Origin: Verrucomicrobium sp. BvORR034
GTDB lineage: Bacteria > Verrucomicrobiota > Verrucomicrobiia > Verrucomicrobiales > Verrucomicrobiaceae
NCBI RefSeq assembly: GCF_000739635.1
Contig: NZ_BATQ01000176.1
Location: 1 to 64,000, forward strand
Reading direction: 5' to 3'
DNA: 64,000 nt
Part shown: positions 16,341 to 24,590 of the stretch, in pieces
How positions within the stretch are numbered: the stretch's first letter is position 1
Layout of the letters: each line of letters starts with the position of its first letter
The notes under the pieces: model-generated
What the model saw: only the letters and a program-made list of their open reading frames with translations
What the model was told of the DNA's origin: nothing
Databases searched by the model: none
Translations under genes and position numbers: made by a program

Positions 16341-17036
16341 ATGCCCGACTTACTTTCCAAAGGAGGCCCGCTCGTCTGGTTGCTGCTTTGCTGCTTCGGA
16401 CTCGCCCTGGCCATCTTTGCAGAGCGTCTCGCGTACTTTCACCGGGCATCGCTAAACGTAGGAGAGTTTCTCGCAGGTCTGGCCAGCCTCATCCGGCGCA
16501 AGAATTTCTCTGAAGCCCTCCAGGAGTGCGTCGCTACGCGGGTGCCAGTGGGCCGTGTGCTGCACGCCGCCTTGCTCCGTCACCACGTCCCCCGCGAGCA
16601 ACTCAAGGAGATCGTCCAGGAAGCGGGCCAGCTGGAAGTGCCCCGACTGGAGCGCTACCTCAGCGTCCTCCACGGCATCGCCCACGCCGCTCCTTTGATC
16701 GGCCTGCTCGGCACCATCGCCGGCCTCATGGACACCTTCACGCAGCTCAACAACGTGAACGGCTACGCCACCCCGGCCGATGTCGCCCGCGGCGTTTACC
16801 AGAGCCTCATCACCTCCGCCTTGGGTCTGGTGGTGGCTATCCCCAGTTTCCTTTTCTATTCGTTCCTCGCTGCCAAGGCCCGTCACCTGATGCATGATCT
16901 TGAGCGCGCGGGCATTGAGGTGGTCAACATCCTGGACGACCACCGTGAACCCGCCCAGAATGCCGACACGGGCGCCCAGATCGTGGAGTTCCGCCAGAGC
17001 GACTCCGGCATGCGCAAGATTGGCAAGAACGCCTGA
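16341..17036 (+). CDS. exbB: MotA/TolQ/ExbB proton channel family protein
   Basis: A 231-aa inner-membrane protein. Its first helix is at residues ~8-28 (PLVWLLLCCFGLALAIFAERL), and the conserved pair of helices is GIAHAAPLIGLLGTIAGLMDTF and SLITSALGLVVAIPSFLFYSFL. The GLLGTI.G and A.GL..AIP motifs are family signatures. With ExbD it forms the ion-driven motor that energises outer-membrane transport or cell-envelope work. exbD starts 45 bp downstream. The TonB partner is not next to it. Confidence 0.9.
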   Translation: MPDLLSKGGPLVWLLLCCFGLALAIFAERLAYFHRASLNVGEFLAGLASLIRRKNFSEALQECVATRVPVGRVLHAALLRHHVPREQLKEIVQEAGQLEVPRLERYLSVLHGIAHAAPLIGLLGTIAGLMDTFTQLNNVNGYATPADVARGVYQSLITSALGLVVAIPSFLFYSFLAAKARHLMHDLERAGIEVVNILDDHREPAQNADTGAQIVEFRQSDSGMRKIGKNA

Positions 17037-17080: not shown

Positions 17081-17482
17081 ATGAAGCTAGAGAGCCATCT
17101 GCCCAAACAGACCTTTTGGCTCTACCTGGGGCCGGTGCTGAATGTGCTGCTCATCCTGCTCATTTTCTTCCTGCTGGGCTCTTCGTTCGTCATTCAGAGC
17201 GGCGTCAGCGTGAAGCTCCCTGAGAGCGGCTTCCCCCTCCGCGACTTCCACCATCCCCTCGTCGCCACCGTCACGGCCAACTCCGACCAGTTCCTCTATC
17301 TGGAAGGCCGCCCCGTCACTCTCTTGGAGATGCGCAAAGGTCTTGAGGAAAAGAAAAAGGAGAGCCGCCAACTCATCATCCATGCCGACGAGATGGCCCC
17401 CTTTGGCAGAGTCCAGGAAGTGGCCAACTCCGCGTTGAGCCTGGGTTATGAAGTCGCTTATGCGACGCAACCGGCGAGGTGA
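17081..17482 (+). CDS. exbD: ExbD/TolR-family protein with Asn at the proton-site position
   Basis: A 133-aa single-pass protein: a short cytoplasmic N-terminus, one membrane helix at ~12-36 (WLYLGPVLNVLLILLIFFLLG), then a periplasmic domain starting SGVSVKLPESGFPL. Alignment by eye with ExbD/TolR (P-x-x-D-V-x-x-x-L-L-I-F-F) puts Asn21 where the essential proton-carrying Asp usually lies (codon AAT at 17141). The rest of the helix matches. It pairs with ExbB just upstream. Either coupling works differently here, or the clade uses an Asn variant. Confidence 0.87.
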   Translation: MKLESHLPKQTFWLYLGPVLNVLLILLIFFLLGSSFVIQSGVSVKLPESGFPLRDFHHPLVATVTANSDQFLYLEGRPVTLLEMRKGLEEKKKESRQLIIHADEMAPFGRVQEVANSALSLGYEVAYATQPAR

Positions 17483-17550
17483 TCGCAGGGCGAAAGGCGA
17501 GACCTCGCGTCGACCCCACGCACTGACTTTACAAAACGAGTGATCTCGTG

Positions 17551-20091
17551 ATGGTCGGGCTCATGCCTGTCAAGCCGTCGTCACAGCTCAGCCTCCGGGA
17601 CACCCTCTCCCATTTGGACCACATCGCCGCAGCCAAGCTGCTGGGAACAGGCGGCCGGGAACTGCTGATCAAGGGCGGTTCCGTCACGATCGAGGTCACG
17701 GAGCAGGTGCATTTCACAGAAGACCACTTCCAGGTGGTGTTTCCTCATCCCGAGAAAGAACCTCTGGTGGTGACGCTGAGCCTGCATCCTGGGGCCAGGC
17801 GTCGGCTGCAAATCGCCTGCAGTCATGATGGCGATGAAGCTGATTTTTATAAAGCTGCCACCTTTGCCCTCATCCTGGAAGAAAAGACGTTGCTGGGTCT
17901 TGCGGCGGCACCTCCCGATCTTGACATCCCTTGGGAGCTCCTGCCCGCCCACCAGCTGGAGGCGAGAGCCCTGGCCGAAAGGACGAAGCGCGCCGCCGAG
18001 GAGAAGATGCGGATCAAAACGGCCGACAAAGCCCAACCTTGGACCGACTACACCGTCACCAACCCCGTCTCCGGCAAATCCTACCGGGTGGGCCTGCGCG
18101 GCCTGGGCCGGGGGCAAAGCTACTGCGCCTGCCCCGACTTCCGGAGGAACCGGCTCGGCACCTGCAAGCACGTCATCGCCGTCCACACCTGGGTGGGCAA
18201 GAAGTTCGACAGCCGCACGCTCAAGCGGGCCTGGAAGCCCAAAAGCATCAACATCCATGCGCTGTACGATGGAGATCTGCGCCTGGCCGTGGAGCACCCC
18301 TCGAACCTGGCCCCATCGGTCGCCGAGCTCCTCGCCCCCTGGGAAAACCGGCAGGCGAAAAGCACGCAGGATATGCTCGCCCTCTTCGAGCTGATCCGGC
18401 AGCTCATTCAACTGGATCAGAATCCAGTCATCTACCCAGATGCGGAAGAGATCTTGTCCCGCTCTCTGCACGAACACCGGCTGGCTGGTCTCGTAGAGGA
18501 GATTCGCAAGGCCCCGGCAAAGCACCCGCTGCGCACCACCCTCCTCAAGACCGGGCTTCTGCCCTACCAGCTGGATGGCATTGCCTTCGCCGCAGGAAAA
18601 GGACGCGCCGTGCTCGCTGATGAAATGGGCCTCGGCAAAACCATTCAGGGCGTCGGGGTCGCCGAATTCCTGGCACGTCACGCGGATGTTCGCCGTGTGC
18701 TGGTGGTATGTCCCGCTTCGCTCAAGTCCCAGTGGAAACTGGAAATCGAAAGGTTCTGTGGCCGAAGCGTGCAGATCGTCTCCGGCAAAACCTCCGAGCG
18801 CAACGCCCTCTACTCTGGCGTCTTCTCTGTGGTGGAATTTGTCGATGACCGGAGACTGGGGCCCGCCTACCGCTTCTTCCACAGCCACCGGGTGGCCACC
18901 GAAACCGGCCGCGTCTCCGGCTACAAGAATCTGGATGCACTGCGTCAACAACTGGAACCCGTGCTGCTCCGCCGCACCCGGGCCAGCATCGCCCTGGACC
19001 TGCCTCCGCGGACGACAGAAATCGTCCGCATCCCCGCCACGGAAGAACAGCAGCATCTGCACAATAGCCACATGGTGACGGTGAATGCCATCACTTCGAA
19101 GAAGTTCCTCAGTGAGATGGATCTGCTGAGGCTCCAGAAGGCGCTGCTGATGGCAAGGATGAGCGCCAACAGCACCTATCTCGTGGACAAGCAATCGCCG
19201 GGATTCTCCAGCAAGCTCGACCGCCTGTCTGAGCTCCTGGAGGCACTGAGTGGCGAGCCCGAGCGGAAGATCATCCTCTTCACGGAGTGGACGACCATGC
19301 TTAATCTCATCGAACCGCTCCTGCAGAAGCTCAAGATGGATTTTGTGAGGCTGGACGGCCAGGTAGCCCAGAAGAAGAGGCAGTCTCTGGTGTCAGAATT
19401 CCAGAGCAATCCGAAGTGCCGGGTGTTCCTCACCACGAACGCCGGCTCCACCGGTCTCAACCTCCAGGCCGCCGACACCGTGATCAACGTGGACCTGCCC
19501 TGGAATCCCGCCTTGCTTGAGCAGCGCATCGCCCGTGCCCATCGCATGGGCCAGAAACGCAAAGTCCAGGTGCACTTGCTGGTGACAGAAGGCACCATTG
19601 AGGAGAACCTTCTGGCCACGCTGGGTGCCAAACATGAACTGGCCGCGGCGGTACTGGATCCTGATTCGACCCTGCAGGAGGTGACTCTTTCCTCCGGGAT
19701 CGAGGAACTCAGAAGACGCTTGGAGATATTGCTGGGTGCCAAAGTCGAAGCAGATCTGGATGTGTCGTCACAGAATCAGGCCGAAGTCGCGGCCGGGATC
19801 AGCGAAGGCACAACGCCTCCAGACGCAGAACGCAAAGCCCGCGTCGCCGAGGCTACAGGAACTCTGGTGGCCAGCGCCTTCAGCCTCCTGGGTGAGCTTC
19901 TGCCCTCTGGGAAAGTGTCACCTCCTGCGGAATCGGTGAATGCCATCCAGGCAGCCCTGCTGGAGAATGTGGTGCTGGGCGAGGATGGCCAGCCGACGCT
20001 GACGCTGAAACTGCCCAACCAGGAAAGCGTCAACGCCATGGCCTCGGCGTTGGCGAGGCTGATGAGCCTTGGGAGCGGCGTGGGGTCGTGA
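17551..20091 (+). CDS. SNF2/SWIM-domain helicase-like protein lacking motifs II-III
   Basis: A SWIM zinc finger is present (CACPDFRRNRLGTCKH, ~193-208), followed by a SNF2 ATPase. Motif I is LADEMGLGKTIQ (~355-366), motif Ia is VVCPASLKSQWKLEIERF, and the C-terminal lobe has VLLRRTR, ILFTEWT, STGLNLQAADTVI and ARAHRMGQ. Between SERNALYSGVF and SVVEFVDDRRLG (~residue 424) the stretch that normally holds motif II (DEAQ/DEAH) and motif III (LTGTP), about 65-70 residues, is absent without a frame break. A protein with this gap should not hydrolyse ATP normally. ATG at 17551 was preferred over GTG at 17548. It follows exbD by 68 bp. Confidence 0.85.
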   Translation: MVGLMPVKPSSQLSLRDTLSHLDHIAAAKLLGTGGRELLIKGGSVTIEVTEQVHFTEDHFQVVFPHPEKEPLVVTLSLHPGARRRLQIACSHDGDEADFYKAATFALILEEKTLLGLAAAPPDLDIPWELLPAHQLEARALAERTKRAAEEKMRIKTADKAQPWTDYTVTNPVSGKSYRVGLRGLGRGQSYCACPDFRRNRLGTCKHVIAVHTWVGKKFDSRTLKRAWKPKSINIHALYDGDLRLAVEHPSNLAPSVAELLAPWENRQAKSTQDMLALFELIRQLIQLDQNPVIYPDAEEILSRSLHEHRLAGLVEEIRKAPAKHPLRTTLLKTGLLPYQLDGIAFAAGKGRAVLADEMGLGKTIQGVGVAEFLARHADVRRVLVVCPASLKSQWKLEIERFCGRSVQIVSGKTSERNALYSGVFSVVEFVDDRRLGPAYRFFHSHRVATETGRVSGYKNLDALRQQLEPVLLRRTRASIALDLPPRTTEIVRIPATEEQQHLHNSHMVTVNAITSKKFLSEMDLLRLQKALLMARMSANSTYLVDKQSPGFSSKLDRLSELLEALSGEPERKIILFTEWTTMLNLIEPLLQKLKMDFVRLDGQVAQKKRQSLVSEFQSNPKCRVFLTTNAGSTGLNLQAADTVINVDLPWNPALLEQRIARAHRMGQKRKVQVHLLVTEGTIEENLLATLGAKHELAAAVLDPDSTLQEVTLSSGIEELRRRLEILLGAKVEADLDVSSQNQAEVAAGISEGTTPPDAERKARVAEATGTLVASAFSLLGELLPSGKVSPPAESVNAIQAALLENVVLGEDGQPTLTLKLPNQESVNAMASALARLMSLGSGVGS

Positions 20092-21320: not shown

Positions 21321-24590
<3,270 letters not shown>

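Follow-up and report, generated by a model that had tools for sequence, protein, structure and literature searches.

The stretch of DNA analysed here (the window) covers 64,000 nucleotides of Verrucomicrobium sp. BvORR034, whose genome is available as an 8.58-Mb draft in 200 contigs. It carries an open reading frame (ORF) of the SNF2 family, preceded by two genes that we take to be ExbB/TolQ-like and ExbD/TolR-like (Table 1). In all three congeners, the SNF2 gene lies between exbD and carB. As the intact point of comparison we used the congener G003, presumably V. spinosum, which is assembled as a single contig of 8,220,857 bp and has an orthologue of 915 aa with 95% identity.

Table 1. Features at the SNF2 locus, in window positions
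Feature	Position	Strand	Basis or remark
ExbB/TolQ-like gene, upstream; a conserved neighbour in this genus only	16341..17036	+	Name from sequence
ExbD/TolR-like gene, directly upstream of the SNF2 ORF	17081..17482	+	Name from sequence
SNF2-family ORF, SWIM + SNF2, 847 aa, internal in-frame deletion	17548..20091	+	Intact congener, 915 aa
SWIM-type zinc finger CxCx(n)CxH (CACPDFRRNRLGTCKH), intact	18124..18171	+	Motif in sequence
Motif I / Walker A, DEMGLGKT, intact	18619..18642	+	Sequence
Motif Ia region, LVVCPASLKSQW, intact	18700..18735	+	Sequence
Deletion junction, hybrid Val codon GTC; 204 bp (68 codons, motifs II + III) gone	18820..18822	+	Alignment
Motif IV region, KIILFTEW, intact	19267..19290	+	Sequence
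Motif V, NAGSTGLNLQ, intact	19438..19467	+	Sequence
Motif VI, QRIARAHRMGQ, intact	19522..19554	+	Sequence

An earlier, sequence-only reading of this DNA had described an open frame that keeps motifs I, Ia and IV–VI and has lost motifs II and III, and both the ORF itself and its alignment with G003 confirm that description. Motifs IV–VI are also conserved. Motif II (DEAQ/DEAH, Walker B), found in G003 and in every other intact orthologue of the alignment, is deleted together with motif III (LTGTP). In Pfam, the ORF matches PF00271 (Helicase_C, 93 bits) and PF00176 (SNF2-rel_dom), both above the cut-off, and the score of the latter falls from 150.7 bits in a single stretch in G003 to 74 bits in two stretches. 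The SWIM ligands are present, and the assignment has motif-only support, as the Pfam SWIM score of 14.7 bits is below the curated cut-off of 19.6. The ORF is a SNF2 gene by descent that is predicted not to work as a SNF2 ATPase.

The 204-bp deletion and its junction

The DNA alignment of the window with G003 contains a single gap, after window base 18820, and the loss first put at about 200 bp turns out to be exactly 204 bp. At the junction, the window protein reads ...SERNALYSG-V-FSVVEFVDDRRLG... in an unbroken frame; at the same place G003 reads ...SGDAFFTLCNYEQVLRDYLDIERTSWDLIILDEAQRIKNWEAKTSRIIKGLRSPFALVLTGTPLENRLDDLFSVVEF..., including both DEAQ and LTGTP. The hybrid codon takes its G from an Asp codon and its TC from a Leu codon, and the residues removed, 425–492, form part of RecA lobe 1. 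Within the 30 bp around the breakpoints, no repeat was found at the join, and the longest word common to the surroundings of both (TTTTC, 5 bp) lies away from it. With no homology at the breakpoints, the deletion looks like the product of illegitimate joining. The segment is carried by 10/10 intact family members, which makes its loss from the window more than chance. As to whether related strains have the same deletion, it is private to the window genome, and its congener BvORR106 is broken differently.

It could be argued that the strain has an intact gene and that its draft assembly, with its many contigs, dropped the 204 bp. BvORR106 is also a draft, and the nearest breakpoints of the two lesions are 10 bp apart, a proximity expected in about 1.5% of cases under random placement, which could hint at a spot that is hard to assemble; another SNF2 gene in the window assembly is one base short in a run of C. 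The junction speaks against such an artefact, being clean, in frame and without a repeat to collapse on, and repeat-mediated collapse is rejected for the last of these reasons. The missing segment is absent from the rest of the assembly, where only other SNF2 genes of 30–47% identity were found. In about 37 kb of colinear DNA compared between the window and G003 or BvORR106, no other indel above 80 bp was found except the BvORR106 lesion in the same gene (the largest other difference within those blocks is 79 bp), and none of the other G003 ORFs matching in the window has a large internal loss, so a generally gappy assembly is rejected too. We consider an assembly artefact improbable and treat the deletion as real.

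Lesions in other members of the family

Searches of 387 genomes of the order, most of them draft or fragmented assemblies, with the complete protein and with its first 320 residues turned up a patchily distributed family of 15 members. Ten members are full length (G003, G013, G350, G110, G200, G056, G039, G048, G186 and G033). The breakage in the other five (the window, BvORR106, G354, G063 and G084) is due to a large mid-contig deletion, which differs from member to member; for the last three, which belong to other genera, contig-end truncation is rejected on this ground.

BvORR106 (G002; NZ_BATR01000008.1, 54,433 bp) lacks the whole 5' half of the gene, and the 3' end of exbD is joined to ...LTLCNYEQ of a 5'-truncated remnant (G002:C202:35351-36877). 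Because this remnant keeps nearly all of the 204-bp segment, with DETQ and LTSTP replacing DEAQ and LTGTP, the window and BvORR106 lesions are independent; as G003 has the entire segment, a single shared ancestral deletion is excluded. In the lobe-1 remnant of BvORR106, 7/59 conserved sites have changed, against 4/289 in the C-terminal half (P = 0.0006); this difference suggests that the remnant has come under relaxed selection. In G354 (G354:C119), the protein can be followed to residue 448 and is picked up again only from 760, in a different frame, without about 449–759. The member in G063 (G063:C47) has a frameshift between residues 61 and 86 and passes from DEGQRI directly to the C-terminal tail, with a loss of ~430 residues (about 460–890). 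In G084 (G084:C204), residue 656 is followed by 731 with a change of frame, and 657–730 are missing. In four of the five lesions, a breakpoint falls between residues 424 and 460, next to motif II; clustering of this kind had a probability of 1.2% in a rough simulation, for which the size of the interval was picked post hoc.

Outside the genus, the exbB, exbD and carB neighbours are absent around all seven of the members checked. The patchy distribution and the unconserved neighbours outside the genus mark this as an accessory gene. A full-length member with ~52% identity also occurs on a contig binned as a Desulfobacteraceae metagenome-assembled genome, which suggests either horizontal transfer or a mis-binned contig. 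The window strain has other SNF2 genes, so redundancy is possible. In one of them, outside the window (G000:C123, ~22,460–22,540), ACCCC has become ACCC and the frame is split; this gene is intact in BvORR106 and G003, so the change means either an error in sequencing or that a further SNF2 gene is broken in this genome.

Two other SNF2 groups served as controls. For housekeeping SNF2 genes, we took the group of the window genome's own C189 gene, with matches in 176 genomes. All nine of the partial matches fetched reach a contig end, and five split matches sit in frames of 914–949 aa and are whole; no internal deletion was found among the anomalies checked, and one match, in the complete genome G094, is without ~60 N-terminal residues. 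In a related SNF2 group (37–41% identity), 32/32 members lie in long open frames, two of them starting near a contig end. With these two left out and shared descent ignored, breakage in 5/15 members against 0/30 gives P = 0.002. Because badly damaged members of the control groups may have been missed at the E-value cut used, and because of the shared descent, the excess of breakage in the SWIM-SNF2 family is suggestive only.

Predicted effect, selection and age

In SNF2 ATPases, motif I binds ATP and the acidic pair of motif II is needed for its hydrolysis. The intact orthologue aligns with SsoRad54 (PDB 1z63) over both RecA lobes and the helicase motifs (E 1.1e-60), and this alignment includes the stretch deleted in the window, with DEAQ and LTGTP. 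Compared with SsoRad54, the family has an additional N-terminal SWIM region and a C-terminal extension, and the window copy is without the motif II/III stretch. We therefore predict from its sequence that the window protein is ATPase-dead. Lobe 1 is probably misfolded, since three of its predicted strands fall in the deleted segment, although the AlphaFold models are poor (mean pLDDT 58–59, pTM about 0.3).

The NCBIfam models for SCO1167/SCO6262, the pilus-regulating Snf2 helicase and RapA have the SNF2 core in common with the family, but all scores are far under the curated cut-offs (258.8 against 1200 for SCO1167), and the protein is not a member of any of them. PADLOC matches to the anti-phage SNF2 proteins ZorD, DpdE and DrmD are likewise limited to the helicase core, and the neighbours within the genus are exbB, exbD and carB rather than defence genes; membership of a defence system is rejected for these reasons. 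Our literature search on inactive bacterial SNF2/SWIM proteins found nothing relevant, and the main text of a V. spinosum transposon paper (PMC12283558) has no entry for this gene.

Between the window and G003, dN/dS is ~0.05 (0.049 for the N-terminal and 0.055 for the C-terminal half). Polarised nonsynonymous/synonymous counts for the C-terminal half are 9/46 in the window, 8/44 in BvORR106 and 2/32 in G003, with no significant difference between broken and intact copies (P = 0.16). If the window copy has been neutral since the deletion, that period amounts to ~4% of its branch (95% interval −2 to 11%). The low dN/dS fits a deletion that arose within about the final tenth of the branch. The low values in both halves and the absence of further damage in the window copy would also fit a retained function. 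Since most of the divergence probably predates the deletion, the low value cannot separate a recent deletion from constraint that has been kept.

The sequence-only reading had offered both of these possibilities, an ATPase-dead protein kept under constraint or a recent deletion. The loss of ATPase activity stands as a prediction, and a recent deletion is favoured by the exact in-frame loss, its restriction to one genome and the independent breakage of relatives; constraint is a possibility that the dN/dS of 0.05 does not establish, as this value fits a recent event too. A protein retained without its ATPase would need a non-catalytic job, for instance as a scaffold or a competitor of intact SNF2 paralogues that binds DNA through its SWIM finger and lobe 2. 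The open frame and the low dN/dS would agree with such retention, as would the BvORR106 contrast, which looks as though lobe 1 alone were relaxed there; that contrast, however, consists of 11 changes in one genome. Which parts of the protein are kept varies among the broken members, so that they have no common retained architecture, and three of them have changes of frame or have lost most of the protein. We think retention of this kind very improbable. Either a recent deletion or a still-constrained protein would account for the window copy, and recency is the simpler of the two.

Probable reading: a repeatedly lost accessory gene

We regard it as quite likely that the window ORF is a real loss-of-function allele, probably of recent origin, of an accessory SNF2 ATPase with a history of repeated loss. 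The gene, in the exbD–carB interval of Verrucomicrobium, would encode a DNA translocase with a SWIM finger, two RecA-like lobes and a C-terminal extension. A deletion of 204 bp in the window strain, probably recent and with no homology at its junction, would have taken out motifs II and III and with them the Walker B acidic pair required for ATP hydrolysis, so that the product should not hydrolyse ATP. The gene appears to be dispensable, and large deletions would have removed it repeatedly in different lineages. The locus looks like the loss of a dispensable gene, not a new kind of protein; the window allele itself is ordinary, and the notable point is the recurrent loss of this SNF2 family.

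A further reading, which we hold only tentatively and think rather unlikely, is that the SNF2-SWIM family is more than dispensable, being costly or unstable, and is gained time and again only to be knocked out by large deletions, as in 5/15 members. If it were true, the fact that four of the five lesions have one breakpoint in the 37 residues immediately before motif II or at the motif itself would indicate a deletion hot spot or selection against the ATPase.

In annotation, the window ORF should be left out of counts of functional SNF2 ATPases, together with at least four relatives, even though profile searches continue to give the window copy that label. That this gene has been broken so often, with other SNF2 genes whole in the same genomes, suggests that it carries a cost or is useful only at times, which is what an accessory or defence-like gene would show.
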